A stretch of DNA of 64,000 nucleotides from Mycoemilia scoparia. Taxonomy: Eukaryota; Kickxellomycota; Kickxellomycetes; Kickxellales; Kickxellaceae. Both the position numbers and the translations under genes were made by a program. The DNA lies in NCBI GenBank assembly GCA_027575805.1, contig JANBPU010000025.1, positions 62,001 to 126,000 of the forward strand, read 5' to 3'. The notes below the pieces were generated by a model. It searched no databases. It was not told the DNA's origin and saw only the letters and a program-made list of their open reading frames with translations. Positions 762 to 57,386 of this stretch are shown piece after piece (position 1 is the first letter of the stretch; every line of letters starts with the position of its first letter).

Positions 762-890
762 AGATCATATTTTTTGAAGGGTACCTTTTGGTGGCCAACT
801 ATTAAAGGGGCGATTACAGCCAAATGGGTGATAATATCACCATTTTTTCGCAAATGGCCACACTTCAAAAATAACTACCCAAATGCTATT
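762..890. mobile_element. MITE-like element, family 1, copy A
   Basis: The terminal inverted repeats are TTTTTTGAAGGG on the left and, inverted, GTTATTTTTGAAGTG on the right. The interior matches other copies (GGTGGCCAACTATTAAAGGG, then CAGCCAAATG). There is no coding capacity. It ends about 65 bases beyond the stop codon of the minus-strand SDS23-like gene, so it probably lies in or near that 3' UTR. Confidence 0.8.
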
Positions 891-955
891 GAAATAAGAC
901 AATACAGATTTTCAGATAATTAAAGCGAGAAAAGGTTTAAATTAAACTCCGACTA

Positions 956-3119
956 CTATTTAGAGCGCTTCAATAGGGGAAGCTCCCTAAAGATCACAGC
1001 CAAGACATCGGTAAGACTAATGACGCTGCAAACAGCATCCTCAAATGCACCAGAGAAGGAGACACGGCGATACCTCTCCGTTCTAGCCGAAATGGACGGT
1101 AATGAGTTTGGTATGACAAGCGAGTGGCGACGATGCATTGGGGCAGGCATCTCCGTAGCAGGGCTTGGGCTTCCTACGATGCTAGGGTTCAGCACGTTAG
1201 GCTCAGCACCGAAGCAGAGTGATGGCGAGTGGCCCAAGGGGGATTCGTTTGTGGTGACCCAGACTCTGTGAGCATTGGTCGCGTTGAGCTTGGTAATTAC
1301 ATGTCGAAGAGTGGCATTTGGCCTAACACCAAACACGGGAATACGGTCCTTTCCTTCCTGTATGCCCTGGTAAAAACGGACAGCCTGGACAAGGGCTATC
1401 ACGCTTCCATAAAGCAGGTGGCGGAACTGTTTGGTCACAACGTACTTGATGTCACCAAGCGACAGGTTTCCTATAAGCGTGCGATTCTCGTCTACTATTG
1501 CCAGCGACGTGATGTGCCAGCGCGATAGTAAGCCTAGCGCCTTGAGAACAGGGGCATCAGGATGGACGTACACTACACTCTTCTGCGTGAGCCCGAGCTC
1601 CTCAACCTATTCGTAAAACACAGACAGCAGGGTATTGGAATAAATTTCCACAATATGAGAATCATTTGAAGAGGTTCATGATGCTTTTATTATCAGAATA
1701 CTTGCAGATTCGTCGAGCAGAGTACTAAAATAGGGAATCGTGCTCATCTAAATGTTATGAAAGTTGGATACAAACATGCATCAGGTTAGCTTAACGCCAA
1801 TATAAGCAGCGATATTGCTTTTATGTTGGTTGCTTACATTATTATACAAAAACTCAACAAGCCTTGACTGGGTCAGTATCCCCTACAAATTGCCAATGTG
1901 TTATTAAATATACTCATGCAGTAGTGCTAATATGGGGGATTTCGACTTATAGCATAGAGCCCACTGCTACCTTGATTTTACCATCGCTGTCAGTCACAGC
2001 AACACGATGAGTTCCCATTGAGAAAAGCTCAACAACCTGGTGGATCGGAGTCTCAGGAAGGACGGTGTAGAAGGGGTTGGCAGTCGAAATATCTAGTATA
2101 AGGTTAATATTCAATTCTGTCAATACTGGTTCACCTGGGATAGAAACAGACATGAACTGTGATGTCTATATGATTTGTATACACACATATGGGCGATTAT
2201 TTTTGAAGGGTTTAAAGCAAATTGCATTTATCAGCGATAATGTAGGCTGGCCAGTATGCAAGTTGAAACTGGCCTACTCATAAAAACTGGCCCTTCAAAA
2301 ATAATGGTCCATATGTATCAATAAGCAGATGTGTTTTACTGACCAGATAAAAGGTCTACAGTAATAGGCTTCTTTTCACGCATGTACCTGGTCAGCTTGT
2401 GGTATTCAAGCTCTGGCGTGATCCATTCCATGGGCTCAGGAAGCCTAAAGGAACCGCCACCAGATGCGCTGCTGGTGCTGGCTCTGCGCCTAACAGGACG
2501 ATAATCCCTGGTCGGAATGCCACTGCTGCCCATGCTACCAAGCCGCCCCATAGTTGGAGACTCCGGCATGCTGCTGTTCGATGTGAAGCTAGAGCTGATA
2601 GAAAATGTGCTTGATCTCCTCCTTTCAATGGCGCCGGGAGATTCACTTATAGCGGGCGGGACCTCTCCATCAGCCGTTGGATTGGACAAAAACTTGCCAA
2701 ACATCTTCATGCGTCTCTTCTCTTCGGGGTTGGACTGAGCGAGGATCAAAAGGAATGTGCAAAGATCGTGTAGATCGAAAAAGCCGACGTAGACCTTAGC
2801 CTTGGAGTCGTATATTGGAACAGAGGATATGTGGTGCTTGATTAGGAGTTCGCTTGTTTCTTCAATACCAGCATCTGTCCCTCTATGCCCCACATGTCGT
2901 AGCAGTTTTGGTTAGATGCTGCTAGTTGGAGATAACAACACTAAAAGAAAGTGTTCTTGTAAAGATGCTTATACAATAGGATGGTTACATTGCTTACACT
3001 TGAATGATGTTCTGGTCGCATACAAGGTCACCAGCCTTGACCATCAACCAGTCCTGTTGGGGGCCACCCATAGCCAAGGGTGGCTTTGGCTGGGCTCTTT
3101 GCTTATAACTAGCCGACAT
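956..3119 (-). CDS. SDS23: Sds23/Moc1-like CBS-domain protein (six exons)
   Basis: Exons on the minus strand are 3119-2998, 2882-2344, 2134-1971, 1882-1838, 1747-1706 and 1606-956, giving 1563 nt and 520 aa with consistent phases. It holds four CBS-type segments: KAGDLVCDQNIIQV / SSVPIYDSKAKVYVGFFDLHD at the N-terminus, then THRVAVTD.../GILTQSRLVEFLYNN, then TSLAIVDENRTLIGNLSLGDI, and a C-terminal half ending VISLTDVLAVIF. A Ser-rich linker of about 90 aa splits the first pair. The EGKDRIPVF and VISLTDVL motifs and the overall order fit Sds23/Moc1, linked in yeasts to PP2A/PP4 inhibition, glucose response and cell-cycle control; that role is inferred from family. Intron 2 carries a MITE. The last intron (1705-1607) uses a GC donor (GCAAGT). 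The 3' end of exon 3 could extend two codons to another donor (GTGGGC), adding Val-Ala. The start at 3119 is the first ATG in frame with the CBS exon. Confidence 0.88.
2185..2318. mobile_element. MITE-like element, family 1, copy B, inside an intron
   Basis: The outer repeats ATATGGGCGATTATTTTTG and, inverted, ATATGGACCATTATTTTTG match over about 24 bases and end in TGAAGGG. The interior belongs to a second subfamily shared with copy H (TAGGCTGGCCAGT ... GAAACTGGCCTACT), which has its own internal inverted repeat. It occupies most of SDS23 intron 2 (2343-2135). The splice sites lie just outside it. Confidence 0.85.
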
Positions 3120-4192
3120 ATATCGTGGAGGAGGAGATAGGAACAGTGCAAAACCGAGAATGAACTAGCTAGTGGTGCTTGGAAATAAGGTTGTATAAAA
3201 GCCTATAGATGGACTTGCCGAAATGGTAAATCCAAGTAGACAGAAAGGACGATGAATTTGTATACAAACTTGTTGCTAACAAAGGTCTAGATAAAAGAAA
3301 GATGCGGTTAAAGAAGCACAGGTGTTTACAGCCGCAAAAGATCTTTTATTTAACTTCTGCGCGCCATAAAACGAATAAATCTCTGTAAGCATAGCACGGC
3401 TCTGGGACTATCTTTTTGGCTAAGCCTGGGGCGGTGATAGCATCATTAAAGCTCCCGAGATTGTTCGCCAGCAATACCTTGGAAAATTACTAGTGATCTC
3501 ACTATTTGTGGCCACCTGAAACTCCGGTATCGGCCATTGGTCTTCGTGAGTATAATGATTGGGCTTGTGATCACGCCTTCGTTTATGCGATTTCAGAGTC
3601 GAAATTGCTTATCCAAAATGCCCTCGGGCGAGCCATTACCTACACATAAATGCCATAAAGAACGTCGACTCCAATTGGCAAAATCAACAAACTTGATCAA
3701 AAGATTCTGGACTTTGCCTACGTACTTGCAACGGGCTTCTTAGAACAGAGCACGGGTGCTAATTCATGGCTGAGATAACGGCGGGAGCGGGTTAATTATA
3801 CGGAGGAAAGCCTTTGCTCTGGAGTCTAGAATCACACATTCTCTCCAGTGGGCTAGGGAATATAGCAGCAAAGGATGTGAGACAAGTGCCACACCCGAGT
3901 ACAGGCACAGAACATTGCCATTGTTCCCAGATTGACAGTTTTTTCTAATATCATTTACACACGTCAGTAGTGCCACATACCTCTCGCATCCTACATTTTC
4001 GCCAGCCTTGCCACTAAAGGAAGCTTCTAAAACAAAGTCGAAGGTTCGCTTTGTTGTTTATTTGGTTCTCCTTTTTGCACACTAGCAGTATATACCTTTC
4101 TTTTGTTAATACCCGCTCACTCACACCTACACACAACCCCATTAGACTTTACCAGAGTATTGCTCTTTTAAAGCATTGTTAATACTACTACA
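3120..4192. other. divergent intergenic region SDS23-like / VTI1
   Basis: No gene is supported. It must hold the promoters of the two divergent genes. The VTI1 side (4080-4190) is pyrimidine-rich, with CACTCACACC-type leader sequence. Short open frames here (for example 3537-3743 and 3764-3976) look random. Confidence 0.55.
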
Positions 4193-5503
4193 ATGAGTAA
4201 CCTAAGCAGGCTCGAAGGCTATTTTGAAGACCTTGAGGGTTTGATAATCGAAGTTGACCTACAAATAACGAAAACTCTACCAACTCTAAGTTTTGGTATG
4301 AATACACTCAACACATTGGCTCTCTTCTCCCCCATTATGATACACATTTAAACATTTATACTCATTTGTGTTTTCTAAACATTGTATTTTGTATGACTTT
4401 GTAAAAGGTGCAAAGCAAAAGGAAATTCGAAGCTGTCAGGCCAAAATAGAGGAAATTGGAGAGATTGTAAGTCCGAAGAACTTTCAAAATGCGTATTTAT
4501 ATATGCCAAGACCCAAATTGATACATTTCATATGTTTTTCTGGCTTCATTTTTGGGAATAGATTGATCAGCTTGAAACAGAGTCTTCTCTAGAACATAAT
4601 GTCAAAGAGTCTGACCGCGCTCGGATAAGAGAGTACAAGAAACAACACCAGGGACTTAAGGAGAAGCTGGTAAGGATTATTTCCAAAACATATCTTAAGG
4701 CATTTATTTAATATATCCATTTATGATTATAATATATATATATATAATATATATATAGCAAAATACGGTTAATAATGCCGATGGATCCTCGGATGGCGCT
4801 GTCAGACGTGAGCTGTTTGGAGACTCGCATTATTCAAACTCTGGGGAGATGGAGGATGCCGTGAATTTAGATCAAAGGTCTAGGCTATTGAAAGGAACCG
4901 AACGCTTGGAGCAATCCACCCAGAGACTTCAAGATAGTCATCGCATTGCTATGCAGACAGGTAACAATAGCTTTGATAATTTGAATTTGACATTTTATTG
5001 CTGGTGATGCTATAATGGTGAATTTTAATATCTTGCATATATTTATATATATATTTAATTTCATTTAGAATCTGTTGGTATTGATATATTGGGCCACCTT
5101 AGGTCACAAAGAGAGCAAATCCAAAATACTCGCAACTCTGTAAGATACATTCTACACACCCCCATTTATTAATTCACATGCAAAAACATTATATTTATAT
5201 GATTTATAAAACCTTTGTAATGTTGCTGTGACTATAGCTTATGCAAGCAGATGAAAATATTGATCGGTCCCAAAGAACATTAAAGGTTATGGCTCGCAGG
5301 TAAAGAATACATACACTCATTTAGGGATATTACATCTTCTGCAACATTAAACAAGTACTAAATATATGAATAATCTAATTCCTAACAAATCTTTTGCGAA
5401 TTTCGACTATAGGATGATGCACAATAAGATGATTACAATGGGCATTGTCGCTGTGGTTGTCTTCTTTATAATTATGTTGTTATACTTTAAGCTATTTCGT
5501 TAG
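4193..5503 (+). CDS. VTI1: Vti1 v-SNARE (seven exons)
   Basis: Exons are 4193-4295, 4408-4466, 4562-4669, 4759-4960, 5069-5139, 5238-5299 and 5413-5503 (696 nt, 231 aa, the usual Vti1 length), all with GT-AG borders. The N-terminal three-helix region starts LSRLEGYFEDLEGLI. A Qb SNARE motif runs from about residue 135 (RLLKGTERLEQSTQRLQ ... SIGIDILGHLRSQREQI-like spacing), followed by a C-terminal membrane anchor of about 20 hydrophobic residues (MGIVAVVVFFIIMLLYF) with a two-residue lumenal tail after KLF. Vti1 pairs with several syntaxins in Golgi-endosome-vacuole fusion. Its 3' end converges on the TXNDC9-like gene, with only 137 bases between stop codons. Confidence 0.93.
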
Positions 5504-5640
5504 ATGATACATACAAACACTCTAGCATTATTATACATGCATTGATATTTGACACTTTTTCACCGTTTGCCTATTTTTCTTTCAGTACAAGTCATGTTCT
5601 TTTATTATTAAACGCCATTATTATTACTTTTAGTATCTCT

Positions 5641-6830: not shown

Positions 6831-6835
6831 GAGCA

Positions 6836-6922
6836 TCCGAGAACCCGGATTTGAACCAGGGACCTGCTGATTACTGATGAAACTCTACAGTCAGCCGCTA
6901 CTACCAACTGAGCTATTCTCGG
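6836..6922 (-). tRNA. tRNA-Tyr(GTA) with 13-base intron
   Basis: On the minus strand the acceptor arm CCGAGAA pairs with TTCTCGG, followed by discriminator A. The D arm carries the A-box-like TAGCTCAGTTGGTAGTAGC, and the T arm CCTGG-TTCAAAT-CCGGG holds the B box. The anticodon stem GCTGA/TCAGC encloses loop CTGTAGA once a 13-base intron, starting one base 3' of the anticodon, is removed. GTA gives tyrosine, and fungal tRNA-Tyr genes usually carry such an intron. The D stem has one weak pair (C with T) and a slightly long loop, which does not look disabling. Confidence 0.95.
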
Positions 6923-13766: not shown

Positions 13767-14307
13767 ATTCTGTTTAGATAGAAGGGCCGGGCACCGGAAG
13801 AGGAAGATGGATACTGTCAATGATTTTAAGATATTCAAGATCATTTTTACCGTTAATGCGGCCATGTTTGTTTAGTTAAAGACTGTCTGGCCACCCACAT
13901 CTTGATCTCCTCCCCTGATGATGAAGAAGAATCGGGGGTGCTGCTTTTGTATATCCATTAATATGGATCTCATATATGCGAATTCCAAACGTATAGGGTG
14001 AAGCGTGTTCCATTGATAACAATAGGTTTCCGGTTTTTCCATAAACTGGATAAGTCCCTCATTTCGCTATTTTTCCAAGATTGGCCAGGAGTTTTGGTAT
14101 TTTAGGATTATGAGTACATGGTTCATGGTTTGGCTGTGTGGTTGATGTGTGCTTGCGTAGTGAGGTGCAAATTTTAGAGTGCGGTCGGTGTGGTTTATTG
14201 GGAATATTTGTGGTTCATCATTAGAGTTGCTGTTGCTATTGATTAATTCAAGAGCAGGGATTGATTCTGTATCTAATAGCAGTCCTACCACTATTTCTTT
14301 AATTGAG

Positions 14308-14424
14308 GTCATGATTTTTAAAGGCACCTTTTGGAGACCAATGATTATAGGGACAATCATAGCCAAATTTGCGTCCACCATTTACTAACAAATAGCCACC
14401 ATTCAAAAATCACCATCCATATTT
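14308..14424. mobile_element. MITE-like element, family 1, copy C (decayed)
   Basis: The left end is ATGATTTTTAAAGGC; the right end, inverted, is ATGGTGATTTTTGAATGG. The interior CCAATGATTATAGGGACAAT ... AGCCAAAT matches copies A, F and K. Its terminal repeats are more diverged than most, suggesting an older insertion. Confidence 0.65.
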
Positions 14425-19864: not shown

Positions 19865-22279
19865 CTAATCCAGACAGACAGCTGGCTGGCAGTTATTACG
19901 AGTAAAGAAATGCTTTCCAAGCTCATAGCTTGATATCATAATGGCACACGCTGGAGCCACTTTAAGTAACCGCGGCGTTAAGCCAGAAAATGCCCCACGC
20001 CAGCCATCCTCGGCAACTATCCGTTTAAGCAGCGATACAATGGTTTGAGGAGACCCACCCATGGATGCTTCTACCTGTCTGCGTGTTTTCGCCACATCAA
20101 ACGGAGTTGTAAGTGTGGCTGAGATTATTCCCGAAGTTGCCCCCGCGGCAAAGGATGTAACAAACGCCTCCGCTTTACTCTGTTTGCACCTACTAGTGAA
20201 TAGTGGCTTATATAGCGCATGTATACGCTCATACCCGAACCAGTAAAATGCCGAAAACGGCACATCTCTCCATAATGTGGGTACAAGTCCTCGATAAAGG
20301 GTTCCTATGCCTTCACTCCGGATCATTCCCTGGACTCCGATCAAGACATCTATAATGCCACCCCCACGTGCACACACACACACAAAAATAGACACAGGAC
20401 CACTTTAGTATTTGTCATACATATATGGTCAAAGTTCACAATGCTTTGGGCAAATGTGCTCCCAAGAGTAGTTGCATATCATATGAATAGTGATTGGGCC
20501 AAAATCCGATGAGAGTCCATCTCTGTCTAACATAGATTCGATTACTAGCGAAGGCCTCCAATAAATACACTTTTAATGGTCCATTAGACACTATGTGTAG
20601 ACTTTGTGGGAGTTTCCTGTTCAATTTCTATATGTATACGCTCCACGCTAGATTAAACTTACTTTTGAGATCGTGTGACGCGGAAGACTGCATTCTTGTT
20701 CTTATGAGTTCTAGCGGAGAAATTACCGTTGCCGAACATGCTAAATATGCAAAAATATGGCGTTATCATGTATATTCGTCATTATTAATTGACTAATGGG
20801 CGACATATTTGTGTGATGATAATAGTGAAACCTACTTCTTGCCACACATCCTGCCAGCAGTGGTGTGTAATCATCGAGTGGCTTTAATTTTTCAATACTT
20901 TGTGCCTTTGAGCCCATCCATGCACGTAGATAGTCATAGCCTACAAAGTAGATGACTGTTGATGGAATGGACGCTACCCTATTATGATTCGTAAGAAGAG
21001 ACCACATAGCCACAGAGACGCATGTGTTTTATTATGTTGAGTTGTTAGTTGCCTGACAGCTATCAAGATTTTTCCTATTGCGGTTATAATACCAATGCCA
21101 TGGATATGTGTGTGTGTGTGTGATTATTTTTGAAGAGCTAATTTCTATTAGTAGACCAGCTTTATCATGCATCTAGCCCTTCAAAAATAATGATCCATAT
21201 CAGTGACATTGGTATTATTAATACAAAACTATACTTACAGGGTAGGGCTTAAGCCGCGCCACAGACTTTTCAGTCCCTCGTTTCTGGATATTTGCATCAT
21301 ACCGTCCTATAATCACACAATGTTTACAATGTTAGTTGGATTTCGAATAAAATGCGCTTATTGTATATATCTCCTCTCTTACTCAAACTCAGGGCCAAAT
21401 ACATAGATAAATACTAGCTTTATACTATCATTGTAGATGTCATATACATACCAGAGTTCCATTAAATTTTGGTATAACCTCTTTTCCTTCTAATGTACGT
21501 TCTATGGAGCTTCCAAATGAGCTTCTTCCAAAATGTCTCCAGCCATCAGCACCCATTACGCTCGGTTTACCAACATTCCAGCCATGGAATACACACGAAG
21601 TGCTGCTCTTTTGGATCTGGCTTGACGACGCGAATTGCTGGACACAAAAGCAGTATCCATCAGTAGCTGGTGGAATAAAGAAATTTGGAGCGCACTGGGA
21701 TATTGTTGACATTGTGCTGGGGTTGATTTTGACTATTGAGGCCTGAGTGGGTCCCGTTGGTCTAATGTTCAGTGACTGGGATTGAAGTCTGGTCTTGACC
21801 ACATCAAATGGCGTCACTATATCACAACAATAGTTGTTTTTAACATTTTTGTGGTGACTGTTGGAAGTGTGGCTGAAACAAACACACAGTGGGGAGTTTG
21901 CGCCGTCATCGTGGCAATACCCAGGTATATGTTACTTACTGAGGCAGGATGTGACTATTGCTCCGCTGCATGCCGAAAATATCTTTTCTGTGAGCTTTGG
22001 CTCTATCTGTGTGCTTTTGCAGGTATTCGGTGACGAGGGCCTCGTTACGCCTGACGATTCATTGTGGCCTTCTTTTGTCTACATACAGATAAGAAAACAC
22101 ATGCATTGGAATCGTATAGGATCGTTTGAGTACAGGCTTATCTTTGCATAATCTGCAATGTTCCACCTAGAACTAAATACACGTACCAAGTCGTTTGGAC
22201 GTATTTTTGCACTTACATAAATGTCTTCTGATGTTTGTGATGCCATGGATAATGTGGATAAAGCTGGTTCCGTGGGCAT
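19865..22279 (-). CDS. MTM1: mitochondrial carrier, MTM1/SLC25A39-40 type (seven exons)
   Basis: Exons are 22279-22217, 22078-21940, 21816-21452, 21306-21239, 20978-20836, 20740-20663 and 20349-19865 (1341 nt, 446 aa). Three carrier repeats each bear the PxD/ExxK/R signature: MTPFDVVKTRL, ISPLELIRTRM and TTPFDVAKTRR. GLVPTLWRDVPFSAFYWFGY is typical of the SLC25A39/40-Mtm1 branch, which moves glutathione into mitochondria and affects manganese loading of SOD2 (family knowledge). The protein is longer than yeast Mtm1; most of the excess is a Ser/Cys-rich matrix loop in exon 3 after the first signature. Intron 4 holds MITE copy D and intron 6 a family-3 repeat copy. The start at 22279 is the first ATG in frame. 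Confidence 0.92.
20456..20535. repeat. weak repeat, family 3, copy 2, in MTM1 intron 6
   Basis: The stretch TTGGGCCAAA followed by GAGAGTCCATCTCTGTCTAA aligns with 690-726, and the upstream part (GCTC ... TTGCA) aligns weakly with 657-672. It lies wholly inside MTM1 intron 6 (20662-20350). Confidence 0.4.
21104..21201. mobile_element. MITE-like element, family 1, copy D, in MTM1 intron 4
   Basis: The right end, inverted, is GATATGGATCATTATTTTTG, then AAGGG. The left end is GATATG, a TG run (about 21106-21122), then ATTATTTTTGAAG. The TG microsatellite has therefore expanded inside the left terminal repeat. The interior is short (about 50 bases). It sits in MTM1 intron 4 (21238-20979). Confidence 0.8.
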
Positions 22280-34708: not shown

Positions 34709-35847
34709 TATTATGTATGCGATTTTATATTATATGTCGTTATAACAACAGGGGACTTGTATTTGTTTTAGAATGCAAAAAAATATTAGCTGTGTATTTG
34801 ATACAGGAGTCCATCCAAGACTTTTAACAAAAAGCCCAATGAAGCGAGCGAAAGATGTTTATTGAAAACACAAGTAAAGAGAAAAAATAACAACGATACC
34901 TGGTTGTGCTCAGAGTCATAATATTTCCTGTTGTCATTAGCAGATTTAGATGGTAGATCAAATCAGCAACTCGAGTCTACTAACGACGCGTCGTTAAGAT
35001 CAACGCCTCTCAACGTTAAAGCTAGTGGGTTGTGTGTATCTTGAAAGAAAGGGTAAACCCTATGGGATAGCCTAACGCACAAGGCCCGTATATGATGACG
35101 GCTTTATACCCTTAGAGAAAGTCGTCTAAAAATACAATATTTGTGGATCAACACCTGTTTGTTCTCAAAAAAAAACCTAGGGTGCTTTCAGAGTCAGCAC
35201 TACCCACCCTTTGGATTAAGATCATTCCGGCTAAGTTAGTCATACTAAATCCATAGACTGAAAACTTGGTCAGTCAACCTCAAGACATGTAAATTTTGGG
35301 ATGCCGGTGAAGGCTCGAAATGATTTTAGTGTTGGAATTCTACAACCATTACGCCACAGAGACAATCCTTTCCACGCACATCCCTGTCTACAATGATTTC
35401 GAGTGTGAATGTTGGCTGCCATCATGGTCATTAGCCAAGACTTTGTTGTTAAGAAAGAGAGGGTTCTCTGTCAACATTAAAAAGAAATTTTAGCACATTT
35501 TGTTTGTTGCAGATAGAACAATAACAGACTTTTAGTGAATAATGCAAACCCCAAACCAAGACAATTTGAAGCATAGGCTTGAGTAGGTAAGTTGTTGAGC
35601 AACATACCAGAGGTATTTTGTCAATTGTAAATGGCATTCAGGTCTTTATTGACTTCTGCATCCAGCATCTTTAGTAAAAAAGATACTTTCTCTTGTCTAC
35701 ATTTGGCGGTAACTTGCTTCTATTTCTTGTATCTTCTCGCTCATACCTTTACTTTTTCCTCATATATACATATCATTTCACCCCTGCTTTCCCTGTCCAT
35801 ATATCTGTGTGTGTGTGTGTCTTTACCCCCTGCCAAGTACCTTCAAA
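34709..35847. other. divergent intergenic SEN1 / Gag-like gene
   Basis: This is about 1.1 kb. A (TG)n run (35806-35820) and CTTTACCCCCTGCC leader sequence precede the Gag-like start. No LTR, primer-binding site or second gene was seen here. Confidence 0.5.
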
Positions 35848-37209
35848 ATGTTTTCGCTTACTTTGGAACAACTTAACGAATTGCAACGTATAATTTCTCA
35901 GCAACATCATCGTGGCCAAGTGGATGCCGACCTCCACGACTTGGTGAAAGTATTGGCCGCCAACACCCAGCTATTGGAAAAGTCGGATGCAGCCTTCATT
36001 GATGAGTCCAAAATGGGCCAGGCCAACCGCTTTATTCCACATACATTCAAAGGCGACCAGCATGACCAGCCCCGACTAACCAGCTGGCTTGCTATGCTTG
36101 AAATGTACTTTTATATGTGCGATGTGGAGCCCAAAGATCAAGTCCAGGTTGCTGCACTTTACCTCAGAGGCATTGCTCTTCAATGGTTCTGCCATTTGGC
36201 TGCCCAAGTCAATGCAGTGAGACTTGGAGACATATCCCAGTTGCAACAATCACAACAAAGCCTGCAGCAATCAGCCATTGAAATAGTCGAAAAATGCCGA
36301 CTGCCTTTTGCCAGTTGGTCTGAATTGAAGGACGCCATGACGATACGATTTTCGAGACTCTATGATGAAGTCCAGGCATTGCTTGAAATCCAGAGGATCA
36401 AGCAAGGAAACCGAAGCGTCCAATCGTATTCTCAGGCATTTTCGGAGATTTTGTATAGACTTCCGCCACAAAAAGAAGAAAGGGCAACCATCTGGTTTGT
36501 TGATGGACTTCGAGAGGACTTGCAGGATTTAGTCATGATCTCAAAGCCATCAACACTGTCTTCAACCATGGCTGTTGCCAGCATACTTGAACAATCCGGC
36601 ATGGGTGGAGGCAACCACAATAATAACAATAACAGTAATAGCAAGAGTACCAGGGGAGGAAATGGTGGTAACAACGGATCCATGAGGTCCAATCGTTCTT
36701 CAAAATCACCAACACCACGGACATCCAGACCCAGCTTGAGTGGTGTCTTTAATACTCCAGCTAGCAACAGGTCTGGCAGCTCAACGCCCCGCCACAATCC
36801 CAACACTAACATATCCAACAGCAATATTGGAATGGTCCACGGTCGTCCAAAGAGGCTTCCATTAACCCAAGAAGAGCGCGACTATCTTCGAGAAAACAAC
36901 GGGTGCTTCCGATGCCGCCTCCTCGGCCATATCGCCACTGATTGCCCTGAAAGCCAAGACCAGGGACACATTCAAAATTCAAATGGAGCTGATGCTGGTG
37001 ACTCATCAAAAAGAAGCGAGAGCAATGGCGGTGATAACAACAAATCTAACCAGTCAAAAAGAAACTCTATCAGAGGACCATCGATCCCCCTTTCATCTCC
37101 TCCATCCAAATCCACTAACACATCCAGCAACAATAACAATAATAATCGCAAAATTTCCAATCCACAAAATGCATCAGCCAAGTCCTCGCCAAAGGATAAC
37201 CAAGACTAA
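35848..37209 (+). CDS. stand-alone retrotransposon Gag-like protein with CCHC zinc knuckle
   Basis: A single exon encodes 453 aa from ATG 35848 (MFSLTLEQLNELQRIISQQH); an in-frame upstream start lies inside a TG tract and is less likely. A Ty3/gypsy-type Gag core spans residues about 60-235 (FIPHTFKGDQ..., WLAMLEMYFY, ALYLRGIALQWFCHLA, IRFSRLYDEVQALLEIQRIK, SVQSYSQAFSEIL). A Ser/Asn/Gly-rich linker follows, then a CCHC zinc knuckle (C-F-R-C-x4-GH-x4-C, near 353-366) and a Ser/Asn/Pro-rich tail. No protease, reverse transcriptase or LTR is evident within about 1 kb either side. An intact frame without partners suggests either domestication or a recent solo fragment. Confidence 0.8.
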   Translation: MFSLTLEQLNELQRIISQQHHRGQVDADLHDLVKVLAANTQLLEKSDAAFIDESKMGQANRFIPHTFKGDQHDQPRLTSWLAMLEMYFYMCDVEPKDQVQVAALYLRGIALQWFCHLAAQVNAVRLGDISQLQQSQQSLQQSAIEIVEKCRLPFASWSELKDAMTIRFSRLYDEVQALLEIQRIKQGNRSVQSYSQAFSEILYRLPPQKEERATIWFVDGLREDLQDLVMISKPSTLSSTMAVASILEQSGMGGGNHNNNNNSNSKSTRGGNGGNNGSMRSNRSSKSPTPRTSRPSLSGVFNTPASNRSGSSTPRHNPNTNISNSNIGMVHGRPKRLPLTQEERDYLRENNGCFRCRLLGHIATDCPESQDQGHIQNSNGADAGDSSKRSESNGGDNNKSNQSKRNSIRGPSIPLSSPPSKSTNTSSNNNNNNRKISNPQNASAKSSPKDNQD

Positions 37210-37683: not shown

Positions 37684-37785
37684 GGTGAGATTGTTTTTGA
37701 AGGGTTAGACACACTCATTTGGCTGTGATTGTGTCTATAATCATTGGCCACCAAAACTTACCCTTCAAAAATTATGATCCATATA
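37684..37785. mobile_element. MITE-like element, family 1, copy E
   Basis: The left end is GATTGTTTTTGAAGGG; the right end, inverted, is TATGGATCATAATTTTTG, then AAGGG. The interior CTCATTTGGCTGTGATTG ... ATAATCATTGGCCACCA is shared with copies I and J (same orientation) and, inverted, with A, F and K. It ends about 100 bases past the stop codon of the minus-strand RPP1 gene. Confidence 0.85.
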
Positions 37786-41293: not shown

Positions 41294-41395
41294 AGATATG
41301 GGTGGTTATTTTTGAAGGGTGGCCAATGACTATAGGGGTAACCATAGCTAAATGTGCGTGCCTAACCCTTCAAAAATAAACTCCCAAATATCTAA
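41294..41395. mobile_element. MITE-like element, family 1, copy F
   Basis: The left end is AGATATGGGTGGTTATTTTTG, then AAGGG; the right end, inverted, is AGATATTTGGGAGTTTATTT, then TTGAAGGG. The interior (GTGGCCAATGACTATAGGGG ... AGCTAAATG) matches copies A, C and K. It lies midway between the divergent H2B and H2A genes. Confidence 0.88.
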
Positions 41396-45671: not shown

Positions 45672-46779
45672 GATGTGAAAGAAAAGTGGTTTATTCTATG
45701 TCTCGGAGATGTTCCGCGTAGAGAAGTCGTGTTTTGATGAATCTTGGTCAACAAGTTCAAGGCGGCGTATATGTATAAAATAGGTGGGTATGTAGATTTT
45801 TAACTTTTCTTCAAGAGACGTTTGGAAACCATGCTCTTTATATGGTTTCTGGTGATAGTTTGGTCAATGTTGATATTCTTAATATACTATCTATAAGCCA
45901 CAGCATGTTGGCTTCAAGTAAAATACCACTCCGCTCTTCTCCCCAACAATTGTCGAGTCGTGGCTGATAACCCAAATTTAACATAGATAAGGAGTCGTCA
46001 AGCTGATTGTTTTCTAAAACTAGATGATGTACTTGCTTTGAGTATGGCATTTAGGGCTAAAGTTAGAAACACAAGGTAAATCAATACTATAATCAAAGTA
46101 CCCCACATTTGACATACAGATGGAAACTCAGCGCTTATTGGTCTGTATGAAATGGATGAACGCTTGGTGCACTAAAGGTTGTCTATTATTAACAATAGAC
46201 GTCTGGTTCATTTCACTTGAAGCCACTCAGATAGTCAATTGTTTACCGAAATAGGCAACTTTGTAGCGATCATCCCCACAGCCAAATCTCTTTGGATTCT
46301 TTATGTCATGCAAAGATCAAAGACTATAGTCAAATTTGTGCCAAGTTGCATGGTTGATAAAGCACCAGAGCTATATTTTGATATTACTATTTCACAACAC
46401 AACAGATAAAAAAGGGTCCCCAAAAGTATAGTCAAAAAAATTAAAGTGCATATATAATATAATTATAAACTTTATTACAAGGAGTATCACTATGGTTATC
46501 ATGTAACAGTATTAGCATTGAAATCAGTACTCGCCTAAAAGCCTTGGGTCAATCGTTACCCAAGTAGCTTGTGTGTAACGATGTATCAACACACGTATCA
46601 CCCAAATGGGCTTTGTAAAGTAAATCAGGCTTACCACTGACTGAGAGCTACTTCTGTGAGACGGTCTACTTTAAAGTCTAACCAGGACTGAAGATAATGT
46701 TTAACTACTCTTTCCCATTATAAACCCATAATTATAGCCATGTCCTATACATCAGCAGCAATAATACAACAAATATAGG

Positions 46780-46800
46780 AAGATTATTTTTGAAGGATTA
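46780..46800. mobile_element. solitary MITE end, family 1, copy G (fragment)
   Basis: AGATTATTTTTGAAGGATTA is a family-1 left terminal repeat with no matching right end before the family-2 element begins at about 46820. It may be the remnant of a copy broken by that insertion. Confidence 0.55.
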
Positions 46801-46819
46801 GTTACTCATTTGGCAAGTT

Positions 46820-46960: not shown

Positions 46961-46967
46961 GATATTT

Positions 46968-47105
46968 GTGTAGCTATTTTTGAAGGGCTAAATGCAGATA
47001 GTGTATAATCATGTATTGGTCAATGTTAATATAGGCTGGTCACTATGTATGATGAAACTGGCCTACTAACAAAAATTAACCCTTCAAAAATTATTATACA
47101 TACGC
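46968..47105. mobile_element. MITE-like element, family 1, copy H
   Basis: The left end is GTAGCTATTTTTGAAGGG; the right end, inverted, is GTATAATAATTTTTGAAGGG. The interior TAGGCTGGTCACT ... GAAACTGGCCTACTAAC is that of copy B, with an internal inverted repeat. It lies about 220 bases beyond the stop of the minus-strand metacaspase-like gene. Confidence 0.82.
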
Positions 47106-49799: not shown

Positions 49800-51460
49800 T
49801 TTGAAAGACAAACACACAGGCCTACTTAAAAACCAGTCTCAAAGGTGATTCTATTTCGAAGAACTATGATTACTATCTTTTATTCTTGGCTCTCTGGCGA
49901 CTTTTTGATTAGGACACCTTCGAACGAAAGTCGGTGGAATATTGTTTTAGCAATATTTTTGTGCTGGAGTCCCGTATAATATAGGTGTATAATAGCAATA
50001 AGATATTTGTAGTTCAAATGGTTGAAGAAAAAAGATATGATAGCCTAGCGTGATGGTGCAAAGCGACCAAGAGGGTATAAATGGTTATAACAGATTTTTT
50101 TGGTTTCTTAATATAAGCTCAACACAGGACATGTTATCTGCATATGAGCATTAAAACAATGGGCTGTAACTTATTAAATCTGCGCAAGTAAGCCCAAGTT
50201 CTAAATAAAAAACCACATCTATACTAAGGCTAGTGTGTGGGAGAATAGCTGTTGGGCTGTGCAGTGAGTATTTCTAGCCTGTATTAAACCCCCATACACT
50301 CATGAATAGGGGCGTTAAATAATCCTTGCCCGATATTCCCAAGATCCCTATGATTGAAATCGATAAGCCGGAAGATTGACAGGGCCTTTGGACACATGGT
50401 TACTTGTTTTAAACCGCAATGCATCCTCCTGACTACGCTTTCTTTGGAGTCCCAAGGTATTTTTGCTAAATGAGGTCATTGGTATTCTAGTCAACAGCTT
50501 CATGCACAAGCCTGTAGCTGTTTGTCTGATATCCCGATTTGACGTCTAAGTATGTATGTTTAAAAAGACGTAATGTCGATTCCTGTGTGGTACCTAGATG
50601 TCGAAATGAGCTTGGCTTTCATGTGTTGCTGATGGGTTTCTAATAATCGCAATACCAAATGGAAAAACATTTAGACATTTTAATAACTAGCGCAACATTG
50701 AAGTTGGATACTCAACCATACAAAAGCTACAAACCACCAATAATTCTTGAACTATGGTGAAACTATTTGTAGGCCAAGCGCCAAAGAAATGTATTGAACA
50801 AAGGCACATGGATCATAATTTCTCAGCGAGTCTCATTTTTTCCCAATACTTTGTGATTTGGGTAACTATTTTTGAAGGGTGACCATCTACTAACAGATGG
50901 TGATCGCTCATTTGGCTGTAGTTTCCCCTTTAATCGTTGGCCACCAAAAGTCACCCTTCAAAAATTATGATCCATTTTTAGCCACGCTTTAATCTTTAGC
51001 ATTTAAACAAATAATCTCATAATGAAGGCTAACTAGCACCACAGCCAAACAAACTTCTAAATCTTGGTACAAAAATAATAATGACCATCATATAATCATG
51101 GTAGTTCAGCTTTAGTATCAATAGTCCTATTTTTAACATTATCTATCTGAATACCAATTAGTGTCCTTACTTTTTGATTAATAATTCATTAGAAATATCA
51201 GATTAAACAATCATCATGGTTGTTATTGGGTATAGTAGAGGCCCGAGAAATTTGGGTGTTTTTGGGCTCCTAGAAATATCTCTTTGTTTGACGCGTTTGA
51301 AAACAAAAGCCAAAAACATTGCTTTCTACTTGTAAGCAAAACACAACACTTTCAGCTTCTGTCTATAAAGTAACGACACGCTTTAAATTCACAGCCATTT
51401 ATACCTGCCAACCTATTAGTATATATACACACGGGCGTGGACGAGGTCGCAATTATAAAG
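49800..51460. other. divergent intergenic metacaspase-like / SWI3
   Basis: Promoters of both genes should lie here, along with MITE copy I (50857-50977). No gene is recognised. The SWI3 side ends in TATATATACACACG at 51420-51434. Confidence 0.5.
50857..50977. mobile_element. MITE-like element, family 1, copy I
   Basis: The left end is TGGGTAACTATTTTTGAAGGG; the right end, inverted, is TGGATCATAATTTTTGAAGGG. The interior CTCATTTGGCTGTAGTTTCC ... ATCGTTGGCCACCA matches copies E and J. Flanking dinucleotides are TT on both sides, consistent with a short target duplication. Confidence 0.87.
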
Positions 51461-54400
51461 ATGTCGCCACCACCACCACCATTTGACCTAGAGGGCAAAA
51501 GGGCCTATTACCAGCGCGAAAATGTAGCCAAATTATACGAAAAGGCCGTAGAGCCTTTGACACGGCAGGTCGAGATCACAGTGACCGAAAAAGCACCTCA
51601 AGCAAACGTTCCTGATATCACAGCGGAGTTTCTAGCCATTTTGACATTTCAGATTTGCCAGATTTTCCAAGAAAAAGAAAAAGTGCAGGGAATGCAAATT
51701 GTTGTGCCACCAGCATCGTTTTTCATTCCACCAAAGGACGGAGTGAGCGAAGACAACAGCGGGAAAGTGCTTTACAATATATTGAGGTGGACACTAGAGT
51801 GGGGCTGTGAGCACCAAATATACTTTGGCGACAAAGCCTGGATAGCAAAAGCTACCGAAGACGAAAAGATACAACCATTGCGCCAACACTTGATTGATAA
51901 ATTGAAGAGTGGAAGCGATGCAGCATGGAAGCAGCCTCGTCTATTCTTTGCCACAACCGAGCCCCAACATCAAGACAAGGTTTCTAGTCTCAAAGAGCAG
52001 GCAAAAAATCTTGGAGCGGAAATAGTTGAGCTATCAGAAAGCCCATCGCACATAATTCAGTACGACCAATCCAAGGATGGAGCTGATGTGGAAGGCGAAG
52101 CCAACGAAGAAAATAAGGGGCATGTCTGGTTCAGAACCGTGTATAGAATAGACAACAATGTACTTGTCCATTGGTGGTACTACCCAGACTCGCTTGATAC
52201 CTGGGTAGCAGCTTCGGGTGAGTATGATACATATCCAGAACCAGAGCCCGAGAGAAATGGCAAGCCGTGGGTAGTTTCGCAGAAATGGCTTGTGGATAGT
52301 GCTAAATACAGAGAATGGGCAAACGAAGAAGACTATGAAGTCGAGACTTCAAGCGATGGAAGCTCATCAGCACCAAACACAGCAAGTGCCAGTATCAATC
52401 CAGCCAGCGATGCAACAAAATCTTTAAGAAGAGCGAGGCACATCGCCACTTCCCGTAGAGGCTCTCCACAAAATCTCTCGCAGTCTCTGCCCAAAGATGA
52501 TGGTGCTGACACCGATGATATCCCTGATCACCAGAAGCCAAAGGAAGTCGACATAGAGGAGAACAAGCAAAAGCTAAACTACCGCCAGCGTGCAGAGTAC
52601 GACCCAATTCCTGGAGGCAACATCGCAAACATCCCACCAGAGTCTGCCCCCGAAAAAGAGACACAAGCAACCAAAGCTAGTGATTCTATGGATGTTGAAG
52701 AGAAACAGGATGAAAAAGACGAGAATAAAGATGCTGAAAAGAAGCAAGACCAGGATAAGGAGCAAAAGGCCACCGAGGAGGATGTGCAGAAGAAAGATCA
52801 AGAAATGGCAAGACTGCTACCTGAGCAAACACAAGAGGTAATCATTCCGAGCTACAGTACATGGTTCAATTTTGGGTCTATTCATGAGAACGAGCGCAAG
52901 GCTCTACCAGAGTTCTTCAACGGACGCAACAGATCAAAGACGCCAACCATCTATGCCGAGTACCGAGACTTTATGATACATACATACCGCCTTAATCCTT
53001 CAGAGTATCTCACAGTGACTGCCTGCCGCAGAAACCTGGCTGGTGATGTCTGTGCAATCATGAGAGTACACGCATTCCTTGAACAATGGGGACTGATAAA
53101 TTATCAAGTAGATGCTGACACACGCCCATCTCTGATAACTGCGCCATTTACTGGACACTTCCGTGTCACTGCTGATACTCCTCGTGGTCTTCAACCGTTC
53201 CAACCACAAGCCGCGCCCAGTGACCTTGATAGCTCGGCAACTAAGAGCCAGCAAGATCCCCTTAAATCCCCGGCTAACGCTGTGCCAATTACCTCTGGTC
53301 CTGGGGCTGCTGCAAACAATCTCGCGGCTTCAAATCTGGCTTTAAGGAAAGATATATTTGATTCCGATGCAAATGAGGGCTCGAACACAGAAACTCCAAG
53401 CATCAAGGTCGAAGCTTCCAAATCTGTTTCAGACATTTCTACAAATGGTAGAGCCACACAGTCTGGAAGTGACTCTAACGCATTGAATCCATTGCCAAAG
53501 AAGGAATACTTTTGCTTTACTTGTAATGTAAACTGTACAAAGGTTCGATACCACTGCCTCAAGGCGTCTAGACAGAATCTCAATATATGCCCACAGTGCT
53601 ATCTCAGCGGGAGATTCCCTGGCACCCTTTCAAGTGCAGATTTTATAAAGCTCTCCTCAGAATCAGCAATCCAAGACAGCCTTGTTAGTAGGTCTGCAGA
53701 AGACTGGAGTGATCAGGAAACATTGTTGCTTCTAGAAGGTATTGAAATGTTTGATGATGATTGGAACCAAATTGCCGAGCATGTCGGTACTCGTACGCGT
53801 GAGCAATGTATATTACGGTTCTTGCAGATGCCCATCGAAGATCCATATGAAGAGTTCCCTGAGGGTGCTGGCGGTGGTGGTAACCTTGATTACCTAAAGT
53901 ATAACTATATCCCATTCTCAAAAGCCGATAACCCAGTCATGTCAGTGGTTGCCTTCTTGGCCGCAAATGTTAACCCTGGAATAGCCGCAGCAGCAGCAAA
54001 AGAAGCCTTGAAGCAGCTCGATAAAGCCAAATCAGAAACCAAGAAAGCTGAGAGTGATAACAAGGATAGTGACAGTCAGGCCCAAAAAGATAATAATGAC
54101 AAAATGGACATTGATGATGACGGGGACACGAAAGGGGAGCATACTGAGAAAACGCCAAACACAGCCCAGGATTCTGCTTCTTCTCCCCAAAACGAAAAGA
54201 ATGGTAATGTTGCTTCAGCCACAGGAAATGAGAAAAAGTCCGAGTTCACTCACTCCAAATTAGAACAGGCCGCCACTGTAGCTCTTGCAGCAGCAGCTAT
54301 CAAGGCATCGCATCTTGCCAACTACGAGGAGCGCGAGATGGAAAGAATGGTCCACAGGATAGGTGAGCTCCAACTTGCCAAGCTAGAACTAAAGATGAAG

Positions 54401-54697
54401 CAGTTTGAACAGATGGAGGTTGCATTGGAGCAGGAAAGAAGGAGCCTTGCACGTCAGAGGCAACAGCTTTTGGAGGACCAATTTGCTCTTAAACAAAAAA
54501 TGGCCCAAATAAACCAAGCTGGTCAACAACAGCAACAAGTACAACAATCACAACTTAGCGCTAGCAATGGTCCAAGTTCAAAGGAACCATTATCACCGCA
54601 ACAGCCTCAATCAGCTCCACCTGTACAAAGAACCGCCACAACTGGTGGAAGCATCCAACAGCAGCAACAGCAAACTAATGGCAGTCTCGGTTCATAG
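51461..54697 (+). CDS. Swi3/Rsc8-type subunit of a SWI/SNF-class remodeller
   Basis: A single exon encodes 1078 aa from ATG 51461 (MSPPPPPFDLEGKRAYYQ); the preceding in-frame GTG is not used. The order is: an N-terminal BRCT/chromo-like region of the SMARCC type (WWYYPDSLDTWV near 240); an acidic/Lys linker; a SWIRM domain near 459-547 (IIPSYSTWFNFGSIHENERK ... SEYLTVTACRRNLAGDVCAI); a ZZ-type zinc finger near 680 (FCFTCNVNC, then CPQCYLSG); a SANT domain near 746-800 (DWSDQETLLLLEGIEMF); and a long coiled coil near 930-1030. The Gln-rich tail ends QQQQQQTNGSLGS. This architecture is that of SMARCC/Swi3/Rsc8. The protein dimerises and anchors the SWI/SNF or RSC complex; the fungal complex is not decided. 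Confidence 0.94.
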   Translation: MSPPPPPFDLEGKRAYYQRENVAKLYEKAVEPLTRQVEITVTEKAPQANVPDITAEFLAILTFQICQIFQEKEKVQGMQIVVPPASFFIPPKDGVSEDNSGKVLYNILRWTLEWGCEHQIYFGDKAWIAKATEDEKIQPLRQHLIDKLKSGSDAAWKQPRLFFATTEPQHQDKVSSLKEQAKNLGAEIVELSESPSHIIQYDQSKDGADVEGEANEENKGHVWFRTVYRIDNNVLVHWWYYPDSLDTWVAASGEYDTYPEPEPERNGKPWVVSQKWLVDSAKYREWANEEDYEVETSSDGSSSAPNTASASINPASDATKSLRRARHIATSRRGSPQNLSQSLPKDDGADTDDIPDHQKPKEVDIEENKQKLNYRQRAEYDPIPGGNIANIPPESAPEKETQATKASDSMDVEEKQDEKDENKDAEKKQDQDKEQKATEEDVQKKDQEMARLLPEQTQEVIIPSYSTWFNFGSIHENERKALPEFFNGRNRSKTPTIYAEYRDFMIHTYRLNPSEYLTVTACRRNLAGDVCAIMRVHAFLEQWGLINYQVDADTRPSLITAPFTGHFRVTADTPRGLQPFQPQAAPSDLDSSATKSQQDPLKSPANAVPITSGPGAAANNLAASNLALRKDIFDSDANEGSNTETPSIKVEASKSVSDISTNGRATQSGSDSNALNPLPKKEYFCFTCNVNCTKVRYHCLKASRQNLNICPQCYLSGRFPGTLSSADFIKLSSESAIQDSLVSRSAEDWSDQETLLLLEGIEMFDDDWNQIAEHVGTRTREQCILRFLQMPIEDPYEEFPEGAGGGGNLDYLKYNYIPFSKADNPVMSVVAFLAANVNPGIAAAAAKEALKQLDKAKSETKKAESDNKDSDSQAQKDNNDKMDIDDDGDTKGEHTEKTPNTAQDSASSPQNEKNGNVASATGNEKKSEFTHSKLEQAATVALAAAAIKASHLANYEEREMERMVHRIGELQLAKLELKMKQFEQMEVALEQERRSLARQRQQLLEDQFALKQKMAQINQAGQQQQQVQQSQLSASNGPSSKEPLSPQQPQSAPPVQRTATTGGSIQQQQQQTNGSLGS

Positions 54698-54746
54698 ATT
54701 GTTTGCTTTCATACATTTTGATAGTAGAAATGCATTTAACCTTAGT

Positions 54747-54872
54747 ACTTGGGCGATAATTTTTGAAGGGTGAATGTTTATTGGAAAAATTGGACGTTCA
54801 TTTGGCTGTGGTTGCCCCTCTATAATCATTGGCCTCCAAAATGTATCCCTCAAAAATCATTACCCATACGAA
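54747..54872. mobile_element. MITE-like element, family 1, copy J
   Basis: The left end is TTGGGCGATAATTTTTGAAG, then GG; the right end, inverted, is TATGGGTAATGATTTTTGAG, then GGA. The interior TTCATTTGGCTGTGGTTGCC ... ATAATCATTGGCCTCCA matches copies E and I. It starts only about 50 bases after the SWI3 stop codon, so it is likely transcribed in that 3' UTR. Confidence 0.87.
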
Positions 54873-55526
54873 CCAATCCTTTATACAATGCCTGACATGT
54901 TTTATATACTCTTTTATTCAAATTCAAATATATATTATTATTTCAAAATCGTATATTGAGATTTTGCTACTGATCAAGTGTCAAATAGGCAGAAATGGGT
55001 CCTCATTTTTTGGCTCAATCACTAATCATTTTCTATGTAGTTCTAGCAGAGCCTTCTCGCTTAAGGGCATATAATAGATTATGGCCATGTCTTTATTTCT
55101 CAAGTCTGTGATAGTATTAAATGATATAAAGGTTTTTATTGTTTCAAACAACGATTTATTCAGCTGAATGTGGATCGCTATACAGAAATAAAGAAACTAT
55201 GAGTCTCATTTAGGTGACCGATCAGACAGTGTGAATACAAAGGACACTTTTGCAATCCAAATAGGAGCAACTTCCCTGAAAATATTTGTCCATCATTTCA
55301 GCCACCGAAAAAGACTACAAAATGCACAATGACTCAAAGATACGTGAAATACAATGGAGGATAATATACAAATATTCAATTAAATGCTTTCTTTAAATAA
55401 CCGTGAGTTTGGTGATAGCTAAAATATCGATTTTATTTGCAAATCTTCAAAGCATCAGAGCACTGTAGCAACAACCATATACCTATGTGTATAGCTTAAA
55501 AATTACTAGTAATGCGTACCAACACC
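54873..55526. other. intergenic SWI3 / RPS13 (convergent)
   Basis: This is AT-rich, with no gene or clear repeat beyond MITE copy J. It holds the downstream flank of RPS13. Confidence 0.5.
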
Positions 55527-56460
55527 TTAAGAGACGAGGGTAGAGGCAGTGGAGGATTCGCTGTAAAGGTACACAAAAAGAGACGAAGTGTGATAAGTAC
55601 AAATGATTACCAAAACAAGGAAAGACTATTACAGAGCAAGACACCCATTCGTGCAAACACACTACACACATCAAGCCATGACTCAAGTAGAACTCCCAAG
55701 CAAACCAGTGTCCATCCCAGAATATATTGAAGATTTATCTCATAATCTGGTTAGGACAGAGGTGTGTGCGAGAAAATTGACCTTGTGTTGTGGCATGATT
55801 AGTAGTAGTTATAAAGTGTTTTTAAGCACGACAGGAACCCCAATAATGTCCATTTAGCCACATTTATGTGGCATTATCCTGCTTGGCAGCCGGCAGAAAC
55901 AATAGTATAGACAGCATGATGTCAAATGTTCGCCAACAAGCAAAAACAGTTTACACAGAACAGGTAGCCAAGCTACAAAATAATAGTCTTAAAAATACAA
56001 GCGCATATATATAGATATACAAAGATCTGACTACTTACTACTTCCAGTTGGGAGGAAGCTGACCAGCGGTCTTGTAGTAGCGAGCAAGACGGTGGATACG
56101 GGACTCGATCAAAATGAGACGGTACTTGGCATCACAGTCCTTGCGGTTGCGTTCCAAGTGCTTACGGACGGAGACGGCCTTCTTGATGAGGTGGTAGAGA
56201 TCCTCAGGAATCTCGGGAGCCAAACCATTGGCACGAAGGATACGAACGACCTTGTTACCAGTGACAAAGCGGACCTGGGGGATACCCTGGGAGTCACGGA
56301 GGATAACACCAATTTGAGAGGGGGTAATACCCTTCTTGGCCAATTTGCAAATCTGAGTGCAAACCTCATCGGGGGTGGTCTTGACCCAGCTTGGGGGAGT
56401 ACGGCGGTAAGGGAGGGCAGAGGATGAAATACCCTTTCCTGGAGTGTGCATGCGACCCAT
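55527..56460 (-). CDS. RPS13: ribosomal protein S13 (uS15), two exons
   Basis: Exon 1 is 56460-56039 and a tiny last exon is 55560-55527 (456 nt, 151 aa, the standard length). Exon 1 codes [20 protein letters not shown] through [14 protein letters not shown] and ends within the next codon (TA|GTAAGT). After a 478-base intron, acceptor TTTACAG leads to C-GAA..., restoring the conserved tail [11 protein letters not shown] and a stop. Without that exon the protein would stop 11 residues early at an apparent TAG, so the donor is easily missed. It is a small-subunit ribosomal protein, and codon use fits high expression. The intron contains a plus-strand candidate gene. Confidence 0.95.
55678..56014 (+). 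CDS. candidate small gene nested antisense in the RPS13 intron
   Basis: Exon 1 is 55678-55763 and exon 2 is 55858-56014, giving 80 aa in consistent phase (GT|GTGTGC donor, CATTTAG acceptor). It begins [20 protein letters not shown] and ends [17 protein letters not shown]. It is predicted helical; no family is recognised. The donor is weak and an adjacent donor at 55762 would put the second exon out of frame. The second exon is a 52-codon open frame within the roughly 480-base intron. Tentative. Confidence 0.38.
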
Positions 56461-57386
56461 GTTTGCTTATTATTTGGCTTTAATAGTCAAGGTTTTAGCA
56501 GAAGATAAAAGAGGAAGAGTCTTTGGAATAAAAATTCTTCTTGGTCTTTTAAAGCGCTTGCTGAGCTCCCATGCCGAGTAGGTTTTTGTTGCCCCATCCA
56601 TAGTTCTACTCCCAGCATTTTCGTTCTCCCAAAAGAAATGATTGGCTGAATAAAAATTTTCTATAACTTGATGGGCTTCTACTAATTAGATCAGCATATT
56701 TGATTACTTGATTCTATAGTCTTTGAGTCTGTCATTCTGTCTATTTTTTATACACACATGAAGCCAGAAAGTAAGAATCAGTCCTATTTTGACGGCCTTA
56801 ATGTTGAGTACCTGAGAGCTGAGCCTAACCACTATTTGGATATGGGAAGGAAACAGATCAGATGGGCAATATTTTTTGAAGGGTATATTTTAGTGGCCAA
56901 TGACTATAGGGGCAATCCCAGCTAAATGGATGTCCAGCTTTACTAGTAAACATTCACCCTTCAAAAATTATTGCCCAGATAGTTTATGATGTATTTAAAT
57001 GAATTTTAAACTCCATTTATTGTTTATTAAATTCAGAGTGGCGATGTGTTATGCCAAGCTGAGCATAGTTTTAATAATAACATCAGGCGTTCATGAGGAT
57101 AAGAGCAATATTCGAATCGTGATCTAACATTCGCCAGAAGCAACTGTGACATCATTGCAGCCCTTAATAAAACGTGTACATGACCCACTACTGTTGCATC
57201 TAATGGAATGGATTCTGTCTAGCATAGAAATGATCCAACTAAGTCGACAAATATAAGGCTTATATGTAAAAGTATTTAGTATTGTCATTTAAAGTCAATA
57301 TCAGTCAAGTTATACACTGCAAGGCCACTAATAAACAAATGATTTTGCATAGCAGCCCGCTACATAGATAGGTACGAAAGGATAAT
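56461..57386. other. intergenic RPS13 / COX12
   Basis: It contains the RPS13 promoter (pyrimidine tracts at 56500-56640) and MITE copy K (56858-56985). No gene is seen. Confidence 0.55.
56858..56985. mobile_element. MITE-like element, family 1, copy K
   Basis: The left end is GATGGGCAATATTTTTTGAA, then GGG; the right end, inverted, is CTGGGCAATAATTTTTGAAG, then GG. The interior TAGTGGCCAATGACTATAGG ... CAGCTAAATGG matches copies A, C and F. Flanks GA|TGGGC and GCCCA|GA suggest a two-base target duplication. Confidence 0.9.

Follow-up and report, generated by a model that had tools for sequence, protein, structure and literature searches.

A crowded family of miniature inverted-repeat elements in the fungus Mycoemilia scoparia, probably moved by a Tc1/mariner-like transposase

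The Stowaway elements of plants, which are mobilised by Tc1/mariner transposases, are short, AT-rich and hairpin-forming, duplicate a TA at the target, occur in very many copies and carry terminal inverted repeats (TIRs) that begin with CTCCCTCC. The mimp elements of Fusarium oxysporum, likewise a fungal family of miniature inverted-repeat transposable elements (MITEs), are moved by impala, a Tc1/mariner element. In this work, we characterise a further family of this well-known kind in the fungus Mycoemilia scoparia, starting from a stretch of 64,000 nucleotides (positions 62001-126000 of contig JANBPU010000025.1, hereafter the window). A sequence-only reading of the window had reported ten copies and one lone end, lettered A to K, and the core of the family, ATTTTTGAAGGG, was found in the reported context at all eleven places. 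Our results are best explained by a non-autonomous cut-and-paste family that is unusually dense for a fungus. The enzyme that moves it would most likely be a Tc1/mariner-like DDE/D transposase, inserting it at A-NN-T with a 2-bp stagger. Like Stowaway, the family is short, AT-rich and hairpin-forming, with TIRs, a two-base duplication that is mostly TA, and very many copies, but its TIR has the form TGG...ATTTTTGAAGGG, which places it outside Stowaway; TA is also less strict, and the host is a fungus rather than a plant. What is unusual in the family is its crowding and, slightly, its landing rule.

For Fol4287, one report gives three Impala copies, none of which encodes a full-length transposase, and counts 54, 45 and 4 mimps in its chromosome classes, with a highest density of 21 per Mb (PMC3599309, Table 3). 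The transposon Sleeping Beauty offers a reference for target choice: its non-TA sites are asymmetric, and published work describes a palindromic target consensus around TA, ~1.4% non-TA insertions and two non-TA insertions, recovered by polymerase chain reaction, with a perfect duplication (PMC5801840); a later paper considers the non-TA sites mainly aberrant (PMC7987939). No paper on MITEs in Kickxellales or early-diverging fungi was found in our literature search, outside of which lay Repbase and bioRxiv, where a name for the family is possible. The letters of the core were found in literature text only in four papers, unrelated by title. M. scoparia, a member of the Kickxellales, is named in one paper, which judging by its title deals with a splicing factor.

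Read inwards, the ends of the elements have the structure A-NN-TGG-RYNATW-ATTTTTGAAGGG, in which the TIR spans 21 bp (TGGRYNATWATTTTTGAAGGG). Hardly any variation is seen in the tip TGG and in the core. The middle bases come in a small number of haplotypes (GGGCAATA, GGATCATA, GGGTGATT and others), and a single copy can have a different one at either end. Two related interiors occur between these shared ends. K-type elements, which include window copies A, C, E, F, I, J and K, measure 115 bp in total if undeleted, with internal deletions in E and F; B-type elements measure 116-134 bp (B, H and three copies on contig C1), and D is a short derivative of 91 bp. These features agree with the sequence-only reading in that the copies form one MITE-like family with a shared TIR, which is common to copies genome-wide; its size range of 100-135 bp comes close to the 88-134 bp measured in the window. 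The elements are thus short, bounded by TIRs and non-coding: none of 28 sampled elements overlaps an open reading frame (ORF) of at least 120 aa, bearing in mind that insertions would themselves break ORFs.

In the assembly (21,160,063 bases in 466 contigs, here denoted by C-numbers, with C168 holding the window), the core has 3,240 exact matches (1616 + 1624). The same pattern reversed but not complemented has two (1 + 1), and a chance origin of the core is therefore excluded. A first look yielded 1,251 candidates genome-wide for copy K and 424 for copy B, and identity was scored for 40 of each. Independently of the ends, hidden Markov models (HMMs) of the interior alone detected 36 loci in a sample of 264 kb, consisting of 200 kb of C1 and the window, a few of them without one end. 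The K-type HMM was derived from 35 copies outside the sample, and the B-type HMM from 4 copies of the sample itself, which it matches by construction. At the 72 ends of the 36 loci, the core is exact in 23 cases and has one mismatch in 30, two in 14, and three or more in 5. Given that the HMMs missed D and G, the sample holds 38 loci, or ~144 per Mb. Extrapolating from the 24 exact cores that correspond to 38 loci in the sample yields ~5,100 loci, ~2.8% of the assembly; this rough figure is too high if copies on other contigs are younger, and it would be 1,620 if every copy had two exact cores. By estimate, the genome would carry thousands of copies, at unrelated sites, with a density of roughly 140-240 loci per Mb across sample and extrapolation. 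In comparison with the at most 21 mimps per Mb given in that table for Fol4287, the ~144 loci per Mb of the sample are far more crowded, a comparison of density and not of TIR sequences. As a separate observation, seven of the 40 scored K-type loci, K included, lie less than 1 kb from a contig end (C189, C65, C161, C361, C283, C247 and C48), where ~1.8 would be expected (P = 0.002), and the assembly may have broken at repeats in these places.

The target duplication is 2 bp long. When the 30-base flanks of 82 elements were compared, 61 match at the 2 bp outside TGG, against 49.4 ± 1.8 after left/right shuffling. Two nested insertions among the fetched stretches (denoted by L-numbers) give the length directly. 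The inner copy of L084 is K-type, and its junctions with the surrounding copy read CAGCC-A-AA-[element]-AA-TGAG; those of the inner copy of L086 read TCA-TA-[element]-TA-TGC. In both cases the host copy becomes continuous once the inner element is taken out together with one dinucleotide, which shows that the duplicated stretch is two bases long and can be other than TA. A duplication of 4 bp was considered, since the 4-base register also exceeds the shuffles (53/82 versus 41.4 ± 2.0), but this register contains the 2-bp one, and changes of the outer base without a repeat on the other side (e.g., ATAT on the left and ATAC on the right) argue against it. In addition, at 8 of 163 ends the element directly adjoins a second copy, with a single dinucleotide shared between the two, and hence the family inserts next to itself. 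The copies found genome-wide thus share ends and duplications, as the sequence-only reading had proposed they would if the family were real.

Flank classes were assigned to the 69 of 83 elements with both tips readable (14 were dropped), after correcting a crossed pairing of the nested L084 copies. Fifty are TA/TA, 8 have a matched non-TA dinucleotide, 10 have TA on one side only, and one falls in none of these classes. Unlike the asymmetric non-TA sites of Sleeping Beauty, the eight matched non-TA copies keep the symmetric A...T. This outer pair is the more constant part of the target: read inwards, the outer base is A at 131 of 138 ends, versus 110 of 138 for the TA dinucleotide (P = 0.0002), and the counts are 90 and 76 among the 92 ends in which tip and core are both intact (P = 0.0008). 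Further out, C or T is favoured, giving the consensus target YA-TA-TR. The two-base duplication as in Tc1/mariner elements, inferred by the sequence-only reading, therefore stands as to its length, whereas the duplicated dinucleotide is not strictly TA.

The matched non-TA class was followed genome-wide through ends of the form A-VA-TGG, of which there are 185. Going down a list of 100 of them, partner ends were fetched for 60 and five were left out (two in stretches already covered, two fetched before and one at a contig start). Among the 60, 13 were dropped and 47 were readable, with 29 partners matched, 13 TA and 5 other. AA ends have an AA partner in 22 of 30 cases, against a background of 4 AA ends in 92 in the sample (P ~5e-24), GA ends a GA partner in 3 of 4, and CA ends a CA partner in 4 of 13. 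CA ends have a TA partner in 5 of 13 cases, as expected if many of them are T-to-C changes of TA.

These counts also bear on a different mechanism, in which a serine or tyrosine recombinase would pair the CCCA-TA-TGGG junction of a circular form with A-NN-T, leaving a 2-bp heteroduplex to be resolved separately at each junction. Such site-specific recombination would account for an outer A...T more constant than NN and for the 10 of 69 copies that pair TA at one end with NN at the opposite end. Unbiased resolution, however, predicts as many matched as TA partners, whereas AA ends have 22 matched versus 7 TA (P = 0.008; 25 versus 7 in a looser hand count, P = 0.002) and all non-TA ends 29 versus 13 (P = 0.02). 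Resolvase-type serine recombinases have no match in the genome (family Resolvase), a search that did not extend to tyrosine recombinases. Some mixed flanks, moreover, have a likely cause of another kind, which was seen for three of the ten mixed copies. Two are neighbours at L051, flanked by GA/TA and TC/TA, a pattern compatible with an inversion: turning round the 27-base spacer that separates the two copies would give back GA/GA and TA/TA without disturbing the outer A...T. The third is copy D, where a GT run suggests slippage. Recombination, conversion or mutation may explain the remaining mixed copies. An excess of transversions in the mixed flanks (10 versus 3, P = 0.02) was reduced to 8 versus 3 (P = 0.06) after two mis-paired nested ends were corrected, and was set aside. 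On these counts the recombinase mechanism is disfavoured, and we consider it extremely unlikely.

The sampled copies are mostly diverged, with a median pairwise identity of 88.7% among 44 K-type copies, and some pairs at different sites, with different flanks, are nearly identical (L056/L065, 99.1%; L048/L049, 98.3%). Variation is unevenly distributed along the element. Comparison of 18 K-type copies, drawn from C1 and the window, with their consensus shows differences at 24 of 430 core positions (5.6%), 175 of 1,202 interior positions (14.6%) and 98 of 320 positions in the outer nine bases; this set favours the core because it was picked for having both ends. In the 44 copies, which were found by similarity to K, 1.8% of core and 7.1% of interior positions differ. 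A core less variable than the interior is as expected of a transposase binding site. A conserved core amid drifting sequence would also be expected if the repeats were kept after insertion for a host function, such as a binding site, a transcription terminator or a hairpin RNA, and the folding results point in the same direction: all six strands folded (both of K and B, one each of I and H) form a TIR hairpin and beat all 200 shuffles, with z between -4.3 and -6.0. These hairpins, however, follow from the presence of TIRs. Variants seen in a single copy, the best proxy for change after insertion, do not differ significantly between core (6/968) and interior (37/3,207) in the 44 copies (P = 0.20). 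The core deficit is found instead among shared variants, the pattern predicted when constraint acts on mobile source copies alone. We read this as constraint that would act on mobile source copies and not on settled ones, and a host function is accordingly very unlikely.

The search for an autonomous partner covered the whole genome at the level of transposase families. DDE_3 has 15 matches, DDE_1 one, Transposase_1 three and Transposase_21 four (above curated cut-off), so that Tc1-like, mariner and pogo-like transposase matches are present; DDE_Tnp_4, like Resolvase, has none. No match of these six families falls in the window, in agreement with the sequence-only reading, which had found no transposase there. 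MITEs of the PIF/Harbinger type (Tourist) have a 3-bp TWA duplication and a DDE_Tnp_4 transposase; a 2-bp duplication and a genome with no DDE_Tnp_4 match place the present family outside this group. Sixteen stretches were scanned, comprising all 15 DDE_3 matches (C287 also has the DDE_1 match, and C313 a Transposase_1 match) and C15, with flanks that are usually ~1.5 kb and in several cases cut by contig ends. Within them, every TIR hit of a weight matrix (score >9) lies in a MITE copy. The remaining matches that resemble the core appear to be due to chance: L030 has two of them with 2 mismatches, L038 has one, and one falls within a mariner ORF (L042, L046).

The mariner and Tc1-like elements of this genome (C313, C15, C14, C74, C267, C415, C112 and others) are of the transposase class expected for a mobilising enzyme, and two mariner copies adjoin MITE copies. 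Their inverted repeats, where visible, differ from the MITE TIR (mariner, TATCGTGATGAAATAAAGTTCTGATAATT; Tc1-like, TACAGTAGGTGTCAAAAA...; and others), and in several fetched stretches the transposon's own inverted repeat is not recognisable. The mariner at C313, which lies between two MITE copies, was considered as a partner but has its own perfect 29-bp TIR. In the fetched stretches, the mariner lies at L042 1334-2656 and L046 1063-2395, with its own inverted repeats of 29-34 bp; in L042 it has a 384-aa ORF and is flanked by two MITE copies, and in L046 it abuts a MITE end. In the Tc1-like elements of L035-L037, L030, L031, L033 and L034, the inverted repeats are very long, at 186-239 nt and with 89-99% complementarity, and the arms of L035-L037 contain a shorter 20-nt inverted pair around AGGGACAAAAGTGTCC.

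Some of these results weigh against a Tc1/mariner-like enzyme. Eight of 69 copies have a duplicated dinucleotide other than TA, although Tc1/mariner enzymes almost always use TA; ten of 69 pair TA at one end with a different dinucleotide at the opposite end; and the autonomous element anticipated by the sequence-only reading did not appear, as no transposase element ends in the MITE TIR in the 16 stretches, with the weak Transposase_1 match at C351 and the four Transposase_21 loci left unread. The partner may be extinct, unassembled or among the unread loci. On C1 (435655-436577), a forward and a reverse core lie 0.9 kb apart, which makes this a possible place for an autonomous element. The departures from TA and the lack of a Tc1/mariner partner in the stretches examined would also suit a CACTA/CMC-type (Transposase_21) or other non-Tc1 DDE transposase with a 2-bp duplication and no TA requirement, and the four Transposase_21 matches over the curated cut-off (C398, C236, C297 and C232) are candidates for it. 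CACTA-type ends, however, begin with CACT, whereas the MITE ends begin with TGG, and TA is nevertheless found at 110 of 138 ends. We consider such an enzyme unlikely.

The Tc1/mariner-like reading would work as follows. A transposase encoded elsewhere, now lost, unassembled or outside the examined stretches, would bind the 21-bp TIRs, recognising the constant core and the constant tip TGG. It would excise the element and insert it at A-NN-T with a two-base stagger, and this staggered insertion would duplicate NN, which is TA at about four-fifths of ends. A bolder version is rather doubtful: the enzyme would represent a lineage of DDE transposases not yet described, reading the outer bases of A-NN-T rather than the duplicated TA, and its activity would have produced the thousands of MITEs in this fungal genome of 21 Mb.

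The copies of the window are delimited from TIR to TIR, as core positions plus nine bases on each side. On the forward strand, copy A (761-881) is K-type and flanked by AA/AA; copy B (2190-2311) is B-type and flanked by TA/TA, its best relative among the 40 scored having 84% identity over 115 bases (up to 90% over 82 bases); copy C (14305-14419) is K-type, with a degenerate left tip and an unclear flank match; copy F (41299-41386) is K-type with an internal deletion and flanks TA/AA; copy H (46967-47100) is B-type with flanks TT/TA; and copy K (56863-56977), K-type and 115 bp long, is flanked by GA/GA and has a best relative of 93% identity among the 40 scored. On the reverse strand, copy E (37684-37781) is a K-type copy with an internal deletion, a mutated left tip and flanks TA/TA; copy I (50859-50974) is K-type with TT/TT; copy J (54750-54866) is K-type with CT/TA; and copy D (21107-21197) is the short B-type derivative. 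The left tip of D is apparently expanded by the GT run: its flanks are TA/TA if the run is slippage in this tip, and TG/TA at fixed spacing, which would start the copy at 21117. Of the matching dinucleotides listed by the sequence-only reading, those of B, E, I and K were recovered and that of D depends on the assumed slippage; the flanks of A match too, and those of F, H and J do not. Fragment G (46777-46814, reverse strand) is a single TIR with subterminal sequence up to CATTTGGC and no partner end. Both this fragment and a partial copy on C1 (at 121137) end right after CATTTGGC, possibly a recurrent breakpoint.

Other features of the window include a 498-aa ORF (35713-37209, forward strand) with a Ty3 capsid/Retrotrans_gag match and a weak zinc-knuckle match, either a stand-alone gag or a fragment, with no polymerase among the 13 of 54 listed window ORFs checked by Pfam. 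Matches of these 13 ORFs include CPSF_A, SEN1, SWIRM, CBS, Mito_carr and RNase P p30. A chitinase ORF of the window is 100% identical, across 98% of its length as query, to H4219_001919 of M. scoparia. With Rfam at the gathering threshold, the window yields a single match, a tRNA gene (6836-6922, reverse strand).

Apart from its density and its target rule, this is an ordinary kind of element. Its target rule, with an outer A...T that varies less than the duplicated TA, departs measurably from what is usual for Tc1/mariner elements. Given that the family is much denser than the mimp reference, it may shape the non-coding regions of the M. scoparia genome.

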